64,000 bases of DNA from Salinigranum rubrum. Lineage in GTDB: Archaea > Halobacteriota > Halobacteria > Halobacteriales > Haloferacaceae. Below, in pieces: positions 2,337 through 57,860 of this stretch. The stretch is from contig NZ_CP026309.1 in NCBI RefSeq assembly GCF_002906575.1, positions 1,054,001-1,118,000 on the forward strand, in the 5' to 3' direction. The notes under the pieces were generated by a model, which saw nothing but the letters and a program-made list of their open reading frames with translations, was not told the origin of the DNA and did no database searches. The translations under genes were made by a program, and so were the position numbers. Each line of letters opens with the position of its first letter. Positions within the stretch are counted from its first letter, which is position 1.

Positions 2337-2425
2337 GCTCGTCGCAAAAAGCTCGGACAAAAACCCCCGCGAACGAGCGCCGCAGCGCTCGCTCGCGGTC
2401 GGTACGAGGTATCTCACCCCAACAA

Positions 2426-2662
2426 CTACTGTTCGCCTCGTGCCGCCTCGTGCCCTGCGAGCGACTCCTCGACGGCCCGGATCAGATCGAGCGCGTCGAC
2501 GCCGCAGACCACGAAGTCGAAGCCCGTCCCGGCGACGAGTTCCGGGACTACCGGGTCCGCGAACGTCGTCCAGTAGCCGACGACCGGGTCGCCGGCGGCG
2601 TATAACTGTCCGCGCCCCGACTGTCGGTGGAACCGACCGCGACGCCACCGACGGGGAGCCAC
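2426..2662 (-). pseudogene. Possible internally deleted remnant of an HpcH/HpaI-type aldolase
   Basis: A 78-codon frame contains AAGDPVVGYWTTFADP followed by a VAGTGFDFVV stretch. This resembles the N-terminal first strand and helix of HpcH/HpaI aldolases (a Trp-containing start, then a GFDFVV strand). It then passes straight into VDALDLIRAVEESLAG, which looks like a C-terminal helix. The family is normally about 250 residues, so nearly the whole TIM barrel with its metal Glu/Asp and catalytic Arg/His would be missing. The match rests on short motifs and was not aligned. It could instead be a fortuitous frame. Confidence 0.35.
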
Positions 2663-2699
2663 GTTCGGCCCGATCGCCGGATGGGTTTTTGACGGACGG

Positions 2700-2712
2700 T
2701 TGTATAGTACAA
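2700..2712 (+). promoter_or_regulatory. TATA-containing palindrome before the DJ-1/PfpI gene
   Basis: ttgta-tag-tacaa is a perfect 5-bp-arm palindrome containing tatagt. It ends 15 nt before the ATG at 2728, with the TATA core about 20-25 nt upstream, as for a leaderless or near-leaderless archaeal promoter. The symmetry could also serve a regulator. Confidence 0.5.
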
Positions 2713-2727
2713 TGTGGTGACACGGCT

Positions 2728-3327
2728 ATGCCAGCAAAAGACATTCTCGTGATCGTCGGCGATTTCAGCGAAGACTACGAAGTGATGGTCGCCTACCAGG
2801 CGTTGCAGATGGTCGGCCACGACGTCGACGTCGCGTGTCCAGACAAGGAAGCCGGTGACACGATCAAGACCGCGATCCACGACTTCCGGGGCGACCAGAC
2901 GTACATCGAGACACGGGGCCACGACTTCGAGTTGACCGCCTCGCTGAACGACGTCGACCCGAACGAGTACGACGTCCTACTCCTCCCCGGCGGGCGCGCG
3001 CCGGAATACCTCCGCACCCGCGAGGTCGTCCTTGAGACGGTCCGGCACTTCTTCGAGGAGGACAAACCCGTCGCCGCGATCTGTCACGGTCCGCAGATCC
3101 TCGCGGCCGCGGGCGTCCTTGACGGGTACGAACTGACGTCGCTTCCGGACGTCCGGACGGACGTCGAACACGCCGGTGCGGGCTGTACCTGGGTCGACGA
3201 GGTGACCCGCGACGGCAACCTCGTCACCGGTCAGACCTGGGAAGACCTCTCGGAGTGGCTCGCGGAACTCCTCGACCTGCTCGGGACCGAGATCAGCCAC
3301 GAGGAGCCGATTACGGCCGACGACTGA
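2728..3327 (+). CDS. DJ-1/PfpI family protein (type 1 glutamine amidotransferase-like), 199 aa
   Basis: Family members act as cysteine hydrolases, deglycases or stress chaperones. The fold markers are clear. There is an N-terminal strand DILVIVGDFSEDYE with the acidic residue that pairs with the active-site Cys. A central DVLLLPGGRAPEYLR loop follows, then the nucleophile elbow AAICHGPQIL with Cys119 followed by His. The length is typical of PfpI/YhbO. The annotated start is the ATG right after the TATA palindrome; a longer in-frame extension upstream has no protein character. It stands alone between the aldolase remnant and a small membrane protein. The exact substrate is not predictable. 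Confidence 0.9.
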   Translation: MPAKDILVIVGDFSEDYEVMVAYQALQMVGHDVDVACPDKEAGDTIKTAIHDFRGDQTYIETRGHDFELTASLNDVDPNEYDVLLLPGGRAPEYLRTREVVLETVRHFFEEDKPVAAICHGPQILAAAGVLDGYELTSLPDVRTDVEHAGAGCTWVDEVTRDGNLVTGQTWEDLSEWLAELLDLLGTEISHEEPITADD

Positions 3328-3554
3328 TCGGGGCTGTTGGACCCCGTCACCGGTCGGTCGACCGACGGAACGCGGCCGATCCCACCGCGACTCGCGACAG
3401 TTCCCGCGATCCGCTTGGACCCGGCCCCGCCGGTTCGCTCTCGACGGTGAACCGCCGGCGTGGAGTCGATCGCCGGGCGCTGGATGTCACGTTCGCGGCT
3501 GCTAGCGGCCGCGCTCGCGATCCTGACAGCGACGCCACCTCGCGCGTCCCCCGA

Positions 3555-3701
3555 TCAGAGGAGCAGGAAGACGAGGAACGGGAGGACGAACAGCGCGACG
3601 AACATGGCAACGAGGACGATTCCGTAGCCGACGCCGGTGCTCGCGAGCGTCAGCCAGGCGTCGTGGTCGAAGCCCTCCGTCTCCTCCGCGGATTCGGTCA
3701 T
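3555..3701 (-). CDS. Small single-pass membrane protein, 48 aa
   Basis: A short frame begins MTESAEETEGFDHDAWLTLA and ends in a long hydrophobic run: VGYGIVLVAMFVALFVLPFLV, then FLLL at the stop. The layout is an acidic cytoplasmic head of about 17 residues and one membrane segment of about 26 residues running to the C-terminus. It is below usual gene-caller length limits, but the composition contrast and the clean start and stop make it credible. It is divergent from endonuclease III. Function unknown; similar tail-anchored micro-proteins are common in haloarchaea. Confidence 0.7.
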   Translation of the reverse strand: MTESAEETEGFDHDAWLTLASTGVGYGIVLVAMFVALFVLPFLVFLLL

Positions 3702-3784
3702 ACGCGTGCGTCGGCGGCGGGCGAGAAAACGCTATCCCTCACCCGAACCACACCACTCATGTCTCCGCCATCGAACGTTCCCCC

Positions 3785-4468
3785 ATGGGCACCCCACGCG
3801 ACTCCAGGGAGGAACAGGTCACGGTCGTCCTCGACCGTCTGTACGAGGCGTACCCCGACACGACCATCTCGCTGAACTTCTCGAATCGACTCGAACTGCT
3901 CGTCGCCGTCGTCCTCTCCGCGCAGTGTACGGACGAGCGGGTCAACGACGTCACGGAGACACTGTTCGAGAAGTACCAGACGGCCGAGGACTACGCGAAC
4001 GCCGACGAGGCGGAACTCGCCGACGACATCTACGGCATCACGTTCCACAACAACAAGGCGGGCTACCTCACGTCGATGGGCGAGACGCTGGTCGAAGAAC
4101 ACGACGGCGAGGTGCCCGACACCATGTCCGCCCTGACCGACCTCTCGGGGGTCGGCCGCAAGACGGCGAACGTCGTCCTCCAGCACGGCCACGACGTCGT
4201 CGAGGGCATCGTCGTCGACACCCACGTGAGGCGGCTCTCGCGCCGACTCGGACTCACCGCCGAGGAGACCCCCGAAAAGATCGAACGCGACCTCATGGGC
4301 GTCGTCCCCGAGTCGGACTGGCAGCAGTTCACCCACCTGCTCATCAGCCACGGCCGGGCGGTGTGTGACGCCCGCAACCCCTCCTGCGACGACTGTGTGC
4401 TGGAGGACGTCTGTCCGTCGTCGAAACTCGACCACGACGTCGACCTCGCGAGCGGCGAGGCGTGGTGA
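3785..4468 (+). CDS. nth: Endonuclease III (DNA glycosylase/AP lyase), 227 aa
   Basis: This enzyme removes oxidised pyrimidines in base excision repair. It has the helix-hairpin-helix LSGVGRKTANVV with catalytic Lys126, the following VDTHVRRLSRRLGL with catalytic Asp145, and a C-terminal 4Fe-4S cluster loop with Cys spacing C-x6-C-x2-C-x5-C (CDARNPSC, DDC, VLEDVC). The length is normal for the family, with a short acidic tail after the cluster. The ATG at 3785 gives the conserved N-terminus (VLDRLYEAYPDT). Single gene; no operon partner is visible. Confidence 0.96.
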   Translation: MGTPRDSREEQVTVVLDRLYEAYPDTTISLNFSNRLELLVAVVLSAQCTDERVNDVTETLFEKYQTAEDYANADEAELADDIYGITFHNNKAGYLTSMGETLVEEHDGEVPDTMSALTDLSGVGRKTANVVLQHGHDVVEGIVVDTHVRRLSRRLGLTAEETPEKIERDLMGVVPESDWQQFTHLLISHGRAVCDARNPSCDDCVLEDVCPSSKLDHDVDLASGEAW

Positions 4469-5540: not shown

Positions 5541-6751
5541 TCACCCCTGCGGGCGGTTCTTCGGCCCGCGGCCGAGTTCGCGTCCCACGTCGGCGGAGAC
5601 GCGGACCGTCCGGGACAGGTAGTACAGCGGGTGGAGTCGTCGGGGAGCGGTCGCCACTCGTAGTCGCCCTCGGTGGGTCTGAAGGCGAGGCCGAGCGACA
5701 TCCGCGCCAGCGTGGACGCGTCGGTACACAGGAGGAGGTCGAACAGGAACCGCTCGTGTACCGACACCTCGTAGCACGGCATCGCCGGGTTCGCCGCGAG
5801 ACGGCGCTCGATGCGTCCGCAGAGCCAGTCGACTCGGCGGCTCGCCCGCGCCCGCCCGAGCAGCGACGCCGGCACCTCGACGTCGGTCAACTCGGCGACG
5901 AGACGCAGTCCGAGCAGGAGGTCACGCTCTGCCCCGGCGTCCCGTGCCCGGTCGAGGGTGACGCCCCAGTCGACTGCACAGGAGTGGACGAGCCTGGCGA
6001 CGTCCGACACCCAGCCGAGGCGTCCCCACGCGTGTTTCGCGCCGTGTCTCACGAGGGCGACGAGGCTGTCCTCGGGCGAGAGCGTCCGCACCGTCTCGCC
6101 GAAGAGCGACACCGGGTGACGCCGTGCCCAGAGCGACTCGAAGCCGTAGTCGACGGGGCGGTGCTTGCTCCCGAACAGCCAGCGCACCTCGACGCTTGTC
6201 CCGTCCGACGCCCGGTGAAAGGAGAACTCGCTGGGCGGCCGGATGACCGACGTGTCGTCCCTGATCTCCTCGACGCTCATCGACCAGTTCCGCTCCAGCG
6301 CGTACCCCATCGTCTCAAACGTCTCGACGACCGCTGGGAGGTCCGCCCGCCGAACGACGAAGTCGAGGTCGCCGTACTGCCGCGCGGTGACGTCGCCGTA
6401 GGCCATCTGCGCGAGGGCGGGTCCCTTGAACGGGACGATCGGCACCGCGGCGCGCTCGAACGCCTCGACGATTCGCGCCAGTTCGGTGGCGAGGTAGAGC
6501 CGCTCTCTCACCGCCGCCCGGTGGTCGTCGTCGAGTCGGTCCCGAACCCACGACGGCACCGAGACGTCGTCGCCGCTCACGAGCAGTCGGTGGAGGTGTG
6601 GCTCGACCGAGTGGGTCCACGCGATGTCACAGAGTGCTTCCCAGTCGGAGACCGAACCGACGAGCGATTCGATTGTCCCGCTCCGCTCCCGGGCGTGTGT
6701 GCCGGCCGCGGCCGCGACCACCCGGAGTTCGGGAGAGGCCGACCGCAGCAT
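5541..6751 (-). CDS. Nucleotidyltransferase-fold protein of a RiPP cluster (NTP_transf_5 type), needs one frameshift correction
   Basis: The central part shows the family signature VPFKGPALAQMAYGD followed by RQYGDLDFVV, the Gly-Asp-x-Asp metal site of the nucleotidyltransferase_5 family. Downstream is a helical domain with LVRHGAKHAWGRLGWVSDVARL. This family accompanies lasso-peptide operons with HPr-kinase-like genes; its reaction is not settled. The start ATG overlaps the kinase stop as TGATG, so the two are translationally coupled. After WRPLPD the frame breaks. Adding one base near 5639 restores RLHPLYYLSRTVRVSADVG and a stop at 5541, giving a protein of about 403 aa. This may be a sequencing error (see findings). 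Confidence 0.85.
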
Positions 6752-7722
6752 CAGTCCACCGCCACGTCGTCGAGGACAGCGTCCACCACTGCGGGGAGGT
6801 CGCTCCGACAGCGTCGTCGTCGCAGCGTCTTCACGGGGACCGACTGGGCGAGTCGGCCACACCGTTCGAGGTTGGCCCCCGCGCTGTCGACCCCTTCGAT
6901 CTCCAGGTCGGTGTACGTGTCCCGGATGAGCATCATGAGCGCCTCGCCCGACTGTAACGGCTCCAGTTCGATCCGCGAACCGGTCGCGAGGCTGTACAAC
7001 CGGCTGATGGGCAGCGGTTCCATCGACTCGCCGGGCACGCGGTAGAAGTGTCTGTCCAGCGTCGGCGACTGCGCCGGCAGCGGCTCCAGCGGAACCGACA
7101 GACCGGACACCGTCGCCGCGTCGAGCTTCAGGGCGGGAAAGCCCGGCTGAACGAGCGGCTTGTCGCCGTCGAACGTGATCGCCGCGACGTCGTCCGCGAG
7201 GACGCGGTAGCCCGCCCCGAGAAGCGCCAGTGCCGTCGTCGACTTCCCCGCCGTCGACTCGCCGAGGAAACACACCGCCCCGTCGCCGACCTGAACCGTA
7301 CTGGCGTGGAGGACCAGAAAGCCGCGCTGGTAGAGGAGGTGGTTGAACACCGAGCCGACCAGGTACCACCGCACCAGTTCGTCGTCGACGTCGGGTGCGC
7401 GGTCGAAGACGACCTCCGATCCGTTGCGAACGACGACGTCACCGACCTCCAGCGACAGGTAGAACTCCTCCCGGGACGCCACGGCGAGCCCGCGGTGGTC
7501 GTCTCCGGTCGGCCCCGGATGTGAGACGCTTCCCCGGCGAATCGTGACGTCCGCCGGCCCGTCGCTCGGCTCTCCCGGGAGGAACTCGGGGAGTTCGACG
7601 TCGGACCGAACCGACAGGCCGAACGCGACGTACCAGTGGGCGCCCGTCGTCGGCTCCGCTCGTGGTCCGACCGCCGTTTCGCGCTGCCCCCGAGAGGCGT
7701 GAGATGATATGTATTTGGACAT
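6751..7722 (-). CDS. HPr-kinase-like protein of the lasso-type cluster, 323 aa
   Basis: The C-terminal half carries the HPr kinase/phosphorylase fold. It has LVLHASTV, a P-loop GESTAGKST (Lys160), then GYRVLADDVAAI, the acidic pair after the P-loop typical of HprK. The N-terminal half (residues 1-130) is a beta-rich domain with little identity. In paeninodin-type lasso clusters such kinases phosphorylate the C-terminal Ser of the precursor; the precursor found just upstream here also ends in Ser. The ATG at 7722 is preferred to a GTG at 7761 because the GTG falls inside the promoter box. It is coupled by TGATG to the nucleotidyltransferase gene. Confidence 0.85.
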   Translation of the reverse strand: MSKYISSHASRGQRETAVGPRAEPTTGAHWYVAFGLSVRSDVELPEFLPGEPSDGPADVTIRRGSVSHPGPTGDDHRGLAVASREEFYLSLEVGDVVVRNGSEVVFDRAPDVDDELVRWYLVGSVFNHLLYQRGFLVLHASTVQVGDGAVCFLGESTAGKSTTALALLGAGYRVLADDVAAITFDGDKPLVQPGFPALKLDAATVSGLSVPLEPLPAQSPTLDRHFYRVPGESMEPLPISRLYSLATGSRIELEPLQSGEALMMLIRDTYTDLEIEGVDSAGANLERCGRLAQSVPVKTLRRRRCRSDLPAVVDAVLDDVAVD

Positions 7723-7758
7723 AGCTGACTCGTCCACGACCACCGGACGCGAGTTCGA

Positions 7759-7770
7759 CACATAGTAATT
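7759..7770 (-). promoter_or_regulatory. TATA-like box of the kinase gene
   Basis: Read on the minus strand this is aattactatgtg. It lies 37 nt or more before the kinase ATG (7722). The core TwACTATg is shared with the boxes before the precursor, B1 and the exporter leader ORF, which suggests coordinated expression. Confidence 0.45.
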
Positions 7771-8010
7771 CGACCGCTACTCCGACTGGCGGAGGCTCTC
7801 CTTCCGGTCGTCGGCCCACCGGAGCCGTGACGTGTCGAAACATCGGCCGACTCGGGTCGGGCCCGTCGGGTGTTCTCCTCGCTCAGCGTGGCAAAGTTCA
7901 CAGCGTCCGACAGTAGTCGCGTTCTCCCGTCCACCCCTCTTCACTCGGAAACGTCTCTCATCCGTCTGTTCGAGGTCAAAGAGACGGGTTTTCGGTCGTA
8001 GTGTGAGTGG

Positions 8011-8127
8011 TTAACTGCGATTGTACTTCCAGCCCCCTCCCCAGCGGCGGCGACGGCCCCACTGGGTGGCGTCCGCGACGGTTCCGTAGTGGTTCAGCTT
8101 CGGTTGTGTGTAGCTTTTCTGAGCCAT
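8011..8127 (-). CDS. Lasso-type RiPP precursor peptide without an acidic acceptor, 38 aa
   Basis: The translation starts MAQKSYTQPKLNHYG, continues TVADATQ, and ends in the core WGRRRRWGGGWKYNRS. The leader fits the B1-recognition motif YxxPxLxxxGxxxxxTx exactly: Tyr6, Pro9, Leu11, Gly15, Thr21, then one residue. Cleavage by B2 would fall after Gln22, with the conserved Thr at position -2. The core has five Arg, one Lys, three Trp and four Gly and no Asp or Glu. The Asp/Glu at core position 7-9 that closes a lasso ring is absent (positions 7-9 are Trp-Gly-Gly). The C-terminal Ser suits the adjacent HPr-kinase-like enzyme. It has its own palindromic TATA-like promoter 29 nt upstream and sits between B2 and the kinase, a usual place for the precursor. 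Confidence 0.85.
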   Translation of the reverse strand: MAQKSYTQPKLNHYGTVADATQWGRRRRWGGGWKYNRS

Positions 8128-8156
8128 GTCGCTCGGCTCCGACGACGCCTGTTTCG

Positions 8157-8170
8157 TACATAGTTATGTA
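8157..8170 (-). promoter_or_regulatory. Palindromic TATA-like promoter of the precursor gene
   Basis: tacata-gt-tatgta is a perfect 6-bp-arm palindrome ending 29 nt before the precursor ATG, the spacing expected for a TATA box on a leaderless transcript. The exporter's leader ORF has an equivalent palindrome gtata-gt-tatac at almost the same spacing. Confidence 0.6.
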
Positions 8171-8544
8171 TCCGAGTACGTCCGGTTAGCGAGGACGTGC
8201 GGACCGCCGCTGTCAGGTTACCCCGTCCGAAAATCCGACGCCCGGCGGTTATGCACACCACCCAGGTCAGCTCTGACGCGTTAGTGAGGACACATAACCC
8301 TGAATATTCCTGCCACCACCCGAAACAGTTCGACGACGGGCGGTTATGCGCACCCAACGCATCGCATGTGTCCGCCGTCGTGTCGAAACTCCGTCACGAC
8401 TCGGTCGCTCCCGTCGATGCACCGTCTCGACGTCCACTCGGGCGGCCGACACCGACGTCCGCGGCCTCTCGCTCCGCCGGGAGCGTCTTCGCCCCGAGCG
8501 GGGTCGGACGGGTGCTCGCGTTCTGACTCCCCTCACGGCCCGTT
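8171..8544. repeat. Gene-poor stretch with a 16-bp direct repeat (8244-8259 and 8340-8355)
   Basis: The gap between the precursor promoter and the B2 gene has no convincing gene. The sequence ggcggttatgc-cacc occurs at 8244-8259 (a at the variable position) and at 8340-8355 (g), 96 bp apart. The tract between the copies is AT-richer (cacataaccctgaatattcc), unlike the cluster genes. It could hold regulator sites or be the scar of a lost gene. I checked short minus-strand frames here for a second YxxPxL leader and found none. Confidence 0.55.
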
Positions 8545-9027
8545 TCACAGCACCGTTCGCCGCCGGAGTCCCGTCTCGTCGGTCGGGAGCGGCGTGTACT
8601 GCGAGAGGTCGTCCAGGTCGCCCAGCAGGACGCGCCCCTCGTGTTCGACCCACGCGTGTGCCCGGAACTCCGACCCGGCCTTCCTGACGCCGATGCGGAC
8701 GCGGGCGGGGTAGCCGTGGGAGGCGAGCATCGCCTGGGCCACGATGGCGCGTCTGAGACACGTCACCGACGCGGGGAGGTACGGCGACAGGACGTTGATC
8801 GACCACGTGACGTCGTCGCGGGTCGCGGTCGAGTCGGGGTCGGCCAGGAACCGACTCGCCCGTCCGACCGCGCTCTGTACGCTCCCGACGGGAACGAACG
8901 GGACGGCGAGCATGCCGTGGGTGACGAGCAGGAGGAGGTACGCCGACGCCAGCAGGCGCTGTCTCGTCCGCGAGTGGCGGGCGAACCGTCGAACCGAGCG
9001 GACGAATCGCCGCACCGAATCGATCAT
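8545..9027 (-). CDS. Lasso-peptide B2-type leader peptidase (transglutaminase-like), 160 aa
   Basis: B2 proteins cut the leader from the precursor after delivery by B1. The catalytic triad is present: Cys90 in SVTCLRRAIVAQAML, His124 in FRAHAWVEH, and Asp137 in LLGDLDD. RIGVRKAGSEF between them matches the family's conserved Gly-Val strand. The N-terminal hydrophobic stretch (AYLLLLVTHGMLAVPFVP) may attach it to the membrane near the exporter, as in many B2 homologues. Its ATG overlaps the B1 stop (ATGA), giving coupled translation. Length is slightly above the usual 140-150 residues. No cyclase gene follows it, unlike standard lasso operons. Confidence 0.92.
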   Translation of the reverse strand: MIDSVRRFVRSVRRFARHSRTRQRLLASAYLLLLVTHGMLAVPFVPVGSVQSAVGRASRFLADPDSTATRDDVTWSINVLSPYLPASVTCLRRAIVAQAMLASHGYPARVRIGVRKAGSEFRAHAWVEHEGRVLLGDLDDLSQYTPLPTDETGLRRRTVL

Positions 9028-9302
9028 TCGACCGTCGCGAGCCGTGCTGTCACCAGTTCGTCGACGAAGGCGACCAGGTCCCGGCGACACTCCTCGGCGC
9101 CGACGTCGTACTCTTCGAGGAGCAGTCTGTGAATCTCGGCGACCGACGCCGGTTCCTGGATGTGGGTCCAGATGGCGTACGCGACGTCCGACAGCCCGTG
9201 GTACTGGCCAGTCTCGGGGTGGAGGACGACCTGCTCGCCCCCGACGTCGGCCGAAACGTGGTTCTGGGTCGCCACGACGACGGAACGGTCCGTGATGCTC
9301 AT
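9024..9302 (-). CDS. Lasso-peptide B1-type protein (PqqD-like RiPP recognition element), 92 aa
   Basis: This is a stand-alone RRE: three strands followed by three helices that grip the precursor leader. The pattern is typical: VVLHPETGQYHGLSDVAYAI (strands plus the Leu-x-x-Val/Ala-x-x-Ile/Trp helix), then WTHIQEP and VAEIHRLLLEEYDV, and a last helix CRRDLVAFVDELVTARL. It would bind the Tyr/Pro/Leu/Gly part of the leader encoded at 8011-8127. Its stop overlaps the B2 start. A TATA-like box lies 28 nt before the ATG, so it heads a B1-B2 transcript. Confidence 0.92.
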   Translation of the reverse strand: MSITDRSVVVATQNHVSADVGGEQVVLHPETGQYHGLSDVAYAIWTHIQEPASVAEIHRLLLEEYDVGAEECRRDLVAFVDELVTARLATVE

Positions 9303-9330
9303 GACGATAGTCAGGGAGGCCCCTGTTCGA

Positions 9331-9340
9331 CATAGTTACT
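9331..9340 (-). promoter_or_regulatory. TATA-like box of the B1 gene
   Basis: Read on the minus strand this is agtaactatg, 28 nt before the start codon. It shares the TAACTAT core with the precursor and exporter promoters. Confidence 0.5.
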
Positions 9341-9458
9341 CAGTCGCTATCGGCCCACGCCGGTCCGTTCGTCCCCGCGTTCGCGCCGCTCGCGTCACTC
9401 TCGAAAACGCACACACTGCTCACCACGACGCCCACGCCACGACGACCCAACCCTGCGT

Positions 9459-11266
9459 TCAGGCCGTCGCCGCGTGCGCCGCGAACAGCGCGGCGTACGC
9501 CCCCTCGTTCCTCACGAGTTCCCCGTGTGTCCCCGATTCGACGACCTCCCCGTGGGACATCACGTGGATGCGGTCCGCGTCCGCGATTGTCGACAGCCGG
9601 TGGGCGATGACGACGGTCGCCCGGTCGCGGTCAGAGGCGGCGAGCGCGTCGTACACCGCCGCTTCGAGCGACGCGTCAAGATTGCTCGTCGCCTCGTCGA
9701 GCACGAGCACGTCGGCGTCCGTGAGCAGCGCCCGTGCCAGCGCGACCCGCTGTCGCTGGCCTCCCGAGAGGCGGACGCCGTCGTCGCCCAGGACCGTTTC
9801 GAGTCCGCTGGGGAGGTGCGGCAGGAACTCGGTTATCTGTGCCACCTCGCACGCGCGTTCGAGTTCTCTCTCCCCGACGTCGGGGTTCCCGACGGTGAGG
9901 TTGAACCGCAGGGTGTCGTTGAACAGGAAGGGGTCCTGCCGCACGACGGCGACCCGTGCGCGCCACGAGTCGACGTCGAACGACGTCACGTCGCGGCCGT
10001 CGGCGCGGACCGTCCCCTCGGTCGGGTCGAACAGCCCGGTCAGAAGGGAGACGATGGTCGACTTCCCAGCCCCCGACTGACCGACGAACGCGACGGTCTC
10101 GCCGCGGTCGACCGAAAACGAGAGGTCGCGGACGCCGACCGTCCCGTCCGGGTACGCGTACGTCACGCGGTCGAAGTCGACGCGGTCGACTCGACGGGGT
10201 GCGGGGACGTCGACGTCCACGCGCTCTCTGTCCCGTTCGAGCGCGGTGATCGTTCGCTCGGTGTTGACGAGGTGCGGTAGCTCGCCGTCGAGCCCGTACG
10301 CCACGTTGTTCAGCGAACTCACGACCGGTGCGAGTCGGAACATCGAGAACAGGAAGACCGCGAACGAACCGACCGAGAGCGCGTACACCTCGATGGAGAG
10401 GTAGACGAGCGCGAACACCGTCACGGCGCTCGCGAACAGGTAGGCGTTGCCGAGAAGCGAGTTGTTCCGCTGGAGGCGAACGTACGAGTCCGCGTGGCTG
10501 TCGACCGCGTCGGCGAACCGGTCGCGTATCCGCTGACGCATCGTGAACAGGCGCACGTCGCGCGCGCCCATGATTCCCGACTGTGCCGTCTCCTGGATGC
10601 GCGCGTTCGCATCGGCGACCGCCTCTCCGGTGGCGTACGCCGGCTGGATTACCCGGTGGAGCAGGACGGTCACCGCACCCATCACGACGACCGCCACCAC
10701 GGTCAACTGGGGGGCGAGCACCAGCGCCACGGCGAGATACACCGAGCCGAGGAACAGCCGCTGGGCGAACTGGACGGCCCCCCGACGACCGCGGAGTGGT
10801 ACTCCGTCTGCGTGATGATCGCGTTCAGCAGTTCGTCCGAGCCGAGTTCGTCCAGCCGCTCGACACGGGCGTCGAGCGCGGCGTCGAACACCCGGGTCCG
10901 GAGGTCGCGCACGTACCTCGTCTCGAGGACCGCGAGCAGCCACGCGACGAGGAACTGCACGCCGAACCGCGCGCCGACGACGAGGGTGATGCCGGCGAGA
11001 ACGGTGCCGAGGGTAAAGGGCACGCCGAGCAGGTCGGAGGCGGCGACGAACGCGGAGAGGACCCGGTCCCCGTCGGTCGGGGGCACCCCGCCGCTCGTCG
11101 CCATCTCGATGATCGGGAGCATGAAGCTCAGTCCGATGCCCTCCAGCACGGCGGCGAGCAGGCTGAGCAGGAGGACGGCCGTCGCCAGCGCCGTGTTCGT
11201 CCGAACGGCCGCCCACACGAGACGGAGTTTTCGCCGCGGCGAGAGCGGCGCCCCCGTCGGCTCCAT
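9459..11266 (-). CDS. ABC transporter, fused permease-ATPase (peptide exporter of the cluster), needs one frameshift correction
   Basis: This is a type I exporter with one membrane domain and one ATPase domain, probably the secretion/immunity (D) component. The permease half runs from about residue 15 to 330 with segments such as LATAVLLLSLLAAVLEGIG and VYLAVALVLAPQLTVVAVV. The ATPase half has Walker A GQSGAGKST, the LSGGQRQRVALARALL signature, Walker B VLVLDEATSNLD and switch His AHRLS. The frame breaks after SAVVGG at a run of six C (10778-10783); one added base continues into AVQFAQRLFLGSV and gives 602 aa. The ATG at 11266 overlaps the stop of a 25-codon ORF (TGATG). Confidence 0.9.
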
Positions 11267-11343
11267 CACCGCTCTCGCCTCCCGGTCCGCGCGCTCGTCT
11301 GCCCGTCGCGCGGGCGTACGGGCGTCGACTTCACGCGGCTCAT
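11266..11343 (-). CDS. Leader micro-ORF, 25 codons, coupled to the exporter gene
   Basis: The micro-ORF encodes MSRVKSTPVRPRDGQT followed by SARTGRRER and a stop that overlaps the exporter ATG as TGATG. Its own ATG is 27 nt behind a palindromic TATA box, so it is the leaderless first cistron. A GGGAGG sequence inside it lies about 10 nt before the exporter ATG and could act as a Shine-Dalgarno site. The peptide is basic but lacks the YxxPxL leader motif, so it is more likely a translational coupler than a second precursor. It could also be the true exporter N-terminus if another base is missing. Confidence 0.5.
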   Translation of the reverse strand: MSRVKSTPVRPRDGQTSARTGRRER

Positions 11344-11369
11344 GACGCCTTGGCTGAGGCGAGAACGGG

Positions 11370-11381
11370 GTATAGTTATAC
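11370..11381 (-). promoter_or_regulatory. Palindromic TATA-like promoter of the exporter
   Basis: gtata-gt-tatac is a perfect 5-bp-arm palindrome, 27 nt before the micro-ORF ATG. It closely matches the precursor promoter at 8157-8170 in sequence, symmetry and spacing. Confidence 0.6.
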
Positions 11382-16964: not shown

Positions 16965-17411
16965 TCAGACGATGGCCGTCCAGATGGGCTCGATGATGAA
17001 AAAGAGGCTCTGGAAGCCGGCGTACAGCAGCGCGACGAGCGACGCCGTGAGGGCCGCCTTCGGTCGTTCCATCTGCATCTCGTTGCGGGCTTCGACCCTG
17101 CGGGCTTCGAACTCGAAGAAGTCCGCGAGGAACACCCCGAGGACGAGGACGGACATGACCATGCCGCCGTGCGGCGCGACGACGAGGAAGGCGAACGACG
17201 CGAGGACGAGGAGCACCGTCGTGACCGAGTGTGGGGTGTACCGTTCTATCTCGGCGTCGTCCTCAGCGTCCTCCGCCTGCTCGACGTGCTTTCGGTGCGC
17301 GAGGAGGCGCGTCACCATGTTCGCCAGCACCAGCACCAGCACGACGAACGGGATCACCGACGCCGCCGCGACCAGTGGGTCGAGCGGGACGAGGAACTGA
17401 AGCGGTTGCAT
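16965..17411 (-). CDS. Haloarchaeal three- to four-helix membrane protein, 148 aa
   Basis: The membrane segments are VAAASVIPFVVLVLVLANMV, VTTVLLVLASFAFLVVAPHG, GMVMSVLVLGVFLADFFEF and ALTASLVALLYAGFQSLFFI. Between the first two is a charged loop (RKHVEQAEDAEDDAEIERY). A conserved Pro-His (APHGGMV) starts the third helix. It is convergent with the cytochrome b operon and resembles DUF7313-type proteins that usually lie beside it. Likely a partner of the respiratory complex, but this rests on gene order only. Confidence 0.7.
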   Translation of the reverse strand: MQPLQFLVPLDPLVAAASVIPFVVLVLVLANMVTRLLAHRKHVEQAEDAEDDAEIERYTPHSVTTVLLVLASFAFLVVAPHGGMVMSVLVLGVFLADFFEFEARRVEARNEMQMERPKAALTASLVALLYAGFQSLFFIIEPIWTAIV

Positions 17412-57707: not shown

Positions 57708-57860
57708 ACGTTTTCGGGCCGGACGAGCGTCGATGGGATTCCCCGAATCCAGTGGATTCGGCTTCGTTCGCTGGCTTCTACGACGACGCCGGTTCCGTCG
57801 TCGGCCTCTCGTCCGGGGTGAATCTCAAGATTTACGTCATCGGCTCACCCACCTTCACTC

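Follow-up and report, generated by a model that had tools for sequence, protein, structure and literature searches.

A cyclase-free clade of lasso-type gene clusters in haloarchaea and its predicted short linear peptides

Can the leader-recognition and leader-cleavage proteins of lasso peptide biosynthesis, B1 and B2, operate without the cyclase? This question is raised by a minus-strand gene cluster of the haloarchaeon Salinigranum rubrum, which lies within the 64,000-nt stretch of DNA analyzed here, hereafter the window (assembly GCF_002906575.1, contig NZ_CP026309.1, positions 1,054,001-1,118,000 of the forward strand). A first-pass annotation had described the cluster as lasso-type, had noted that neither an asparagine-synthetase-like cyclase (C) gene nor an Asp or Glu in the precursor core was to be found, and had taken the two absences for a real variant rather than an annotation gap. 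Profile searches bear out the gene identities and their order at positions 5541-11269 (ABC exporter, B1, B2, precursor, HprK-like kinase and NTP_transf_5 gene), with the correction that the exporter and the nucleotidyltransferase (NTase) are each split over two frames. We consider it probable that this cluster belongs to a stable haloarchaeal branch of lasso machinery that lacks the cyclase and exports a linear, kinase-modified peptide of 8-17 residues.

All genes of the cluster are on the minus strand of the window. B1 (9024-9302) is a stand-alone PqqD-type recognition element (RRE) for ribosomally synthesized and post-translationally modified peptides (RiPPs), which matches PF05402 with 71.9 bits and the NCBIfam model lasso_PqqD_Bac with 64 bits, below that model's 80-bit cut-off; its closest solved relative is the lasso RRE PbaB1 (9x90_B, E=2.8e-13). 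The reading frame of B2 (8545-9027) overlaps the B1 stop codon and encodes a transglutaminase-like Cys leader peptidase (NF033537, lasso_biosyn_B2, 95.1 bits, well above that model's cut-off of 33; PF13471, 82.9 bits) in which the predicted catalytic Cys (VTCLRRA), His (RAHAWVE) and Asp (LGDLDD) are all present; a sequence search of solved structures with B2 gave no match. The HprK-like peptide kinase (6751-7761) matches the HPr kinase C domain (PF07475) with 27.2 bits (E=3e-6), a score under the Pfam cut-off of 33.3, yet its family membership is clear from the alignment, in which His152, Lys173, Asp190 and Asp191 are invariant over 11 relatives, and its profile matches the HPr kinase structures 1jb1 and 2qmh. 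The same His-Lys-Asp-Asp set has been described for lasso-tailoring kinases (PMC9266682). The set is completed by the NTP_transf_5 nucleotidyltransferase-like protein (5541-6751; PF14907, 185.7 bits), whose C-terminal part lies in the other frame, and by the MsbA/HepA-like ABC exporter (9459-11269), which has both membrane and ATPase domains (PF00664, PF00005 and an NCBIfam MsbA-type model). Directly downstream of the NTase is a DUF7321 membrane protein (5473-4982), and the two read as a single long open frame because of the break in the NTase frame.

The precursor (8011-8127), recognized from its reading frame, its leader pattern and a weak match of its leader to the lasso precursor profile NF033528 (E=3.7e-4, below cut-off), has 38 residues: a 22-residue leader, MAQKSYTQPKLNHYGTVADATQ, and a predicted 16-residue core, WGRRRRWGGGWKYNRS. 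As the first-pass annotation had it, the core contains neither Asp nor Glu; it has a net charge of +6 and a C-terminal Ser. The leader is of the lasso type, YxxPxL...G...T ending in Thr-x (YTQPKLNHYGTVADATQ), and cleavage is predicted after Gln22 since the penultimate leader residue is Thr. The pattern Y..P.[LIVMF]..YG is found seven times in the 4.97-Mb genome while the reversed pattern is found once, which places it above chance, and all seven sites are precursors, one in the window cluster and six in a second cluster described below. Upstream of the window precursor lies a box, CATAACTA (8161-8168, minus strand), a putative promoter element also found in front of every one of the six second-cluster precursors; farther upstream, two 24-nt direct repeats 95 bp apart (8236-8354, no strand assigned) each contain a related box, GCATAACC.

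Is the cyclase absent, or is it encoded elsewhere and able to work in trans on this precursor so as to yield an ordinary lasso peptide? Searches with the PF00733 (Asn_synthase) profile gave no match near the window cluster, and none near the second cluster. A search of the whole genome for C proteins, which had been proposed as a check, yielded five PF00733 matches, every one more than 250 kb from the window cluster and belonging to other families, with none of the lasso type. Two of these, of 617 and 623 aa, could be considered for a role in trans, and a lasso cyclase does act on an already cleaved core. However, the lasso-cyclase profile gives them only 81 and 94 bits, compared to 747-883 bits for true cluster-linked cyclases, and many haloarchaea with no B2 listed in our survey have relatives of them (35-41% identity). 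A third strong match is a 376-aa protein; almost every surveyed genome has one of this kind, with comparable domain scores. These observations make a trans-acting cyclase unlikely on sequence grounds, and the 617- and 623-aa proteins were rejected as candidates. Moreover, a long Asn-synthetase-like protein is missing altogether from G091 and G202, two 99%-complete Haloarcula genomes with cyclase-free clusters, and the cyclase-free cores either have no ring acceptor or are of insufficient length for threading. An ordinary lasso peptide made in trans is thus, in our judgment, very improbable.

The second cluster (L016) was found by profile search with B1 and B2 at about 1.662 Mb on contig 1, 0.6 Mb from the window cluster. 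Every one of its genes is in frame: six precursors, kinase, NTase, ABC transporter, B1 and B2, again without a cyclase. The precursors stand in tandem (L016:14726-18468) and have a common leader, MTYEKPTLETYGRVESLTQ, with approximately 90% nucleotide identity; their tails (GEYYGSEPTY, EATGSEPVYDIT, VYDNGSYPVKVE, GGDYNGSEPTYF, LEKYSEPL and VKIIGSEPF) are 8-12 aa long and hypervariable apart from a Ser-Glu/Tyr-Pro motif. GNAT-like open reading frames occur among and beyond them (16991-17308 and from 18580 onward).

Among 394 sampled genomes of the order, 29 contain B2 above its curated cut-off, and in the cyclase-bearing ones C is located inside the cluster. The cyclase-free set (ABC/B1/B2/A/K/N) was found in 11 Haloarcula genomes, in a genome of another genus (G043) and in the halobacterial metagenome-assembled genome (MAG) CSSed162cmA_512 (L063/L078), where no ABC gene was found on the cluster's contig, although ABC is present in other loci of the clade. 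The loss is therefore not isolated, given a second complete cyclase-free set in the same genome and the same set in relatives. Within Haloarcula, 12 of 32 genomes have B2 and the twelfth, G397, carries the cyclase-bearing kind, indicating that the two kinds of cluster are distinct and patchily distributed. A further cyclase-free locus in Natronococcus pandeyae (L116, 9857-9976) falls outside the main clade in trees; its predicted core, QMYRPDVPPRPPGPPWR, is proline-rich and recalls proline-rich antimicrobial peptides. In a cyanobacterial contig (L085, an Aphanothece MAG), kinase, B2 and B1 lie together at 2344-4046 with no cyclase within 10 kb, and no precursor was found.

In a tree of concatenated B1, B2, kinase (K) and NTase (N) sequences, the seven main cyclase-free representatives fall on one side of a single branch (bootstrap 92, SH-aLRT 99), with the window cluster and the second cluster as sisters (98/92). 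A tree of the kinase alone agrees (support 88). The evidence for a cyclase-free clade is good, if not maximal. Homologous loci with an Asp-containing core and a cyclase, which the first-pass annotation had named as grounds for doubting a variant system, do exist, but only outside this clade and as a separate group. A screen for further genes common to the cyclase-free loci revealed no additional shared biosynthetic enzyme; nearly all pairs were shadow frames of known genes, and the few others had no evident link to the pathway.

Alternatively, the window cluster may be a lasso cluster in decay, from which the cyclase was deleted and in which the exporter and NTase are turning into pseudogenes. 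The exporter is split between two frames at a run of six G (10779-10784) and the NTase near position 5690, and three other genomes of the same genus have no B2, as decay might predict. In contrast, the second cluster and the Haloarcula clusters are unbroken while equally lacking a cyclase, and the exporter orthologues are intact in both. They are also under purifying selection: the ratio of nonsynonymous to synonymous substitution rates (dN/dS) over all five genes is 0.08-0.27 among close Haloarcula pairs, 0.18-0.32 when these are compared with L058, a more distant Haloarcula, and 0.31-0.61 for the between-genus pair, for which synonymous sites are near saturation; these values speak against decay. 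In addition, a cytochrome-b-type (petD-like) gene at about 15280 in the window is split likewise, by what appears to be a single-base break, and uncorrected homopolymer or assembly indels are therefore the likely and simplest cause of all three breaks. We regard decay as improbable. Elsewhere in the window, ARAGORN called a 92-nt tRNA-Thr with anticodon AGT (57723-57814), unusual for an archaeon and possibly an artifact of the bacterial mode.

The peptides themselves also separate the two kinds of cluster. A ring-plus-tail layout was defined as Asp in the eighth position of an [N/D/E]KxGxxxD or Gx6D stretch, with seven or more residues after it. Among precursors of cyclase-bearing haloarchaeal clusters 25 of 26 have this layout, against none of 13 distinct cyclase-free ones; the counts are only descriptive because the pattern was devised after viewing the sequences. 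Core lengths provide a contrast that is independent of this pattern: 15-32 residues in cyclase-bearing clusters versus 8-17 in cyclase-free ones (Mann-Whitney P = 7e-7, with related precursors not independent of one another). Together with the second cluster and the clade, precursors lacking this layout uphold the view of a real variant. Among cyclase-bearing loci, one has an Arg-Gly-repeat core, GSKGKGRGRGRGRGRGASRGDGLGGGR, with no Asp at the ring position (L066:8252-8419), and two others (L048:12269-18270 and L052:3945-7999) each encode a pair of cyclases and two or three kinases, with two kinds of precursor (DEYS and xxHFSxVDGNSGTTGNRG) next to each other.

What, then, might the cyclase-free clusters make? 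In the pathway that we infer from these genes, the stand-alone RRE B1 would bind the YxxPxL leader of a short precursor and B2 would remove the leader by cutting after Thr-x. Next, the HprK-like kinase would phosphorylate the core, most likely on Ser: the window core and each of the six cores of the second cluster have a single Ser, which is C-terminal in the former and would be that of the S-E-P motif in the latter. The NTP_transf_5 protein may elaborate this phosphate, and the ABC transporter would export the uncyclized, linear peptide of 8-17 residues. That relatives keep the same cyclase-free set makes short, linear, phosphate-tagged exported peptides the probable product, and their role is probably that of a hypervariable exported signal or antagonist. 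The phosphorylated or nucleotidylated product proposed at first pass would fit by analogy, the nearest tested precedents being the linear polyphosphorylated peptides (LPPs) of Bacillota (PMC13381572) and the paeninodin-type kinases (PMC9266682).

Several points weigh against this proposal. Sequence establishes the gene set, the leader motif, the catalytic residues of B2 and the kinase, the missing cyclase, the clade and the purifying selection, whereas cleavage, phosphorylation, export, linearity and biological role are predicted. The exporter and NTase frames are broken in the window copy, and assembly error, though likely, is unproven as the cause; the same type of error could have shifted the frame of the window core, whose codons are G-rich, and the exact core calls for caution. 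The argument draws on the second cluster and Haloarcula no less than on the window copy. Phosphorylation of Ser could not be universal, as Ser and Thr are both missing from four of the 13 cyclase-free cores (those of the MAG, N. pandeyae and two Haloarcula variants that end in Asp). The cyclase-free cores also vary widely in charge, making a single common function hard to name.

The cores without Ser or Thr bear on two other readings. The kinase or nucleotidyltransferase could instead activate a carboxylate, as an acyl phosphate or acyl adenylate, with an unusual ring or conjugate forming without a classical cyclase. Acidic residues are present in several cores that lack Ser and Thr, and Haloarcula cores, one of which is predicted to be WWDHDDGYGKWS, alternate between Ser and Asp at the C-terminus. 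Against this, the tested relatives phosphorylate Ser (PMC13381572, PMC9266682), and the window core, which has no Asp or Glu, offers only its C-terminal carboxylate; we find this chemistry very improbable. Somewhat more plausible, if still doubtful, is a separate archaeal RiPP class in which B1 and B2 release hypervariable linear peptides of 8-17 aa that the kinase and NTP_transf_5 protein modify independently of Ser (on Tyr, Asp or the C-terminus), and in which the six-precursor family would serve as exported recognition or antagonism peptides.

These clusters suggest that B1 and B2 recognize and cleave lasso-type leaders without a cyclase in a stable archaeal lineage, and genome mining keyed to the cyclase would therefore miss them. 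They also offer short substrates (8-17 aa) on which the kinase and NTP_transf_5 enzymes, both poorly understood, can be tested, as well as candidates for short exported peptides of archaea, a field with few known examples.

How do these clusters compare with known systems? With lasso peptides, the window cluster shares the B1 RRE, the B2 Cys-peptidase and the leader; it has no cyclase C, and its core does not combine an Asp/Glu acceptor at about position 7-9 with a tail that could thread. The label 'lasso-type' holds for the machinery and not for the product. The cyclase-bearing haloarchaeal lasso clusters (e.g. L048, L067, L069, L074 and L157) have homologous B1, B2, K, N and ABC genes and the same kind of leader, but they have C beside B2, their 15-32-aa cores nearly all show the ring-plus-tail layout, and they occupy a separate branch of the tree. 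The paeninodin-type phosphorylated lasso peptides are similar in their A, K, B1, B2, N, D set, in the His-Lys-Asp-Asp kinase, in the lasso-type leader and in the C-terminal Ser of the window core. They differ in that the window cluster lacks the cyclase and the Asp/Glu acceptor. Bacillota paeninodins use a WxxP leader, whereas the window leader has Tyr, and the matching RRE pocket is likewise not seen in B1, which has Asp.

In the literature, here openly licensed papers, an archaeal RiPP survey touches on lasso peptides only in passing (PMC12144867), and the genome paper of Haloarcula hispanica Boch-4 describes an 'RRE-dependent RiPP' region in which B1, B2 and a kinase were noted (PMC10093198). 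This region is probably one of the clusters described here, although that paper makes no mention of cyclase absence, precursor or product; an earlier notice of such clusters is possible.

The closest experimentally studied system is that of the LPPs, which its authors find in Bacillota only (Popov et al. 2026, PMC13381572). LPP clusters encode a stand-alone RRE, an HprK-like kinase, an NTP transferase and an MsbA-like transporter, and no cyclase; the product is a linear core that bears one to four phosphates, all at a single Ser, and its leader is removed by a SipW-like peptidase (PMC13381572). The haloarchaeal clusters have all four of these components, a YxxP leader, no cyclase and a predicted linear phospho-peptide. 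In LppB, Asp70 hydrogen-bonds the leader Tyr (PMC13381572); B1 has Asp at the equivalent site, where PbaB1 has Gln79, in agreement with the YxxP leader of the window precursor. In place of the SipW-like signal peptidase LppS, however, the haloarchaeal clusters have the lasso peptidase B2. Matches to TIGR02228 (SipW-like/archaeal-type SpI) in cyclase-free genomes are all far from the clusters, and a signal-peptidase role as in LPPs was rejected here because no such peptidase lies near these loci. Nor does the LPP motif YxxPxVLxHQxIxFETxxS fit the window leader, YTQPKLNHYGTVADAT, which follows the lasso-like YxxPxLxxYGxVxxxT. LPP precursors have 35-200 aa and the tested core 45 aa (PMC13381572), while the archaeal cores, at 8-17 aa, are much shorter. 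That peptidases and leaders differ between the two groups suggests that each lost, or never had, the cyclase separately; if so, linear phospho-peptides built from lasso parts would be a recurring design. By analogy, the haloarchaeal clusters resemble an archaeal counterpart or variant of the LPP design, with B2 taking the place of the SipW-like peptidase.

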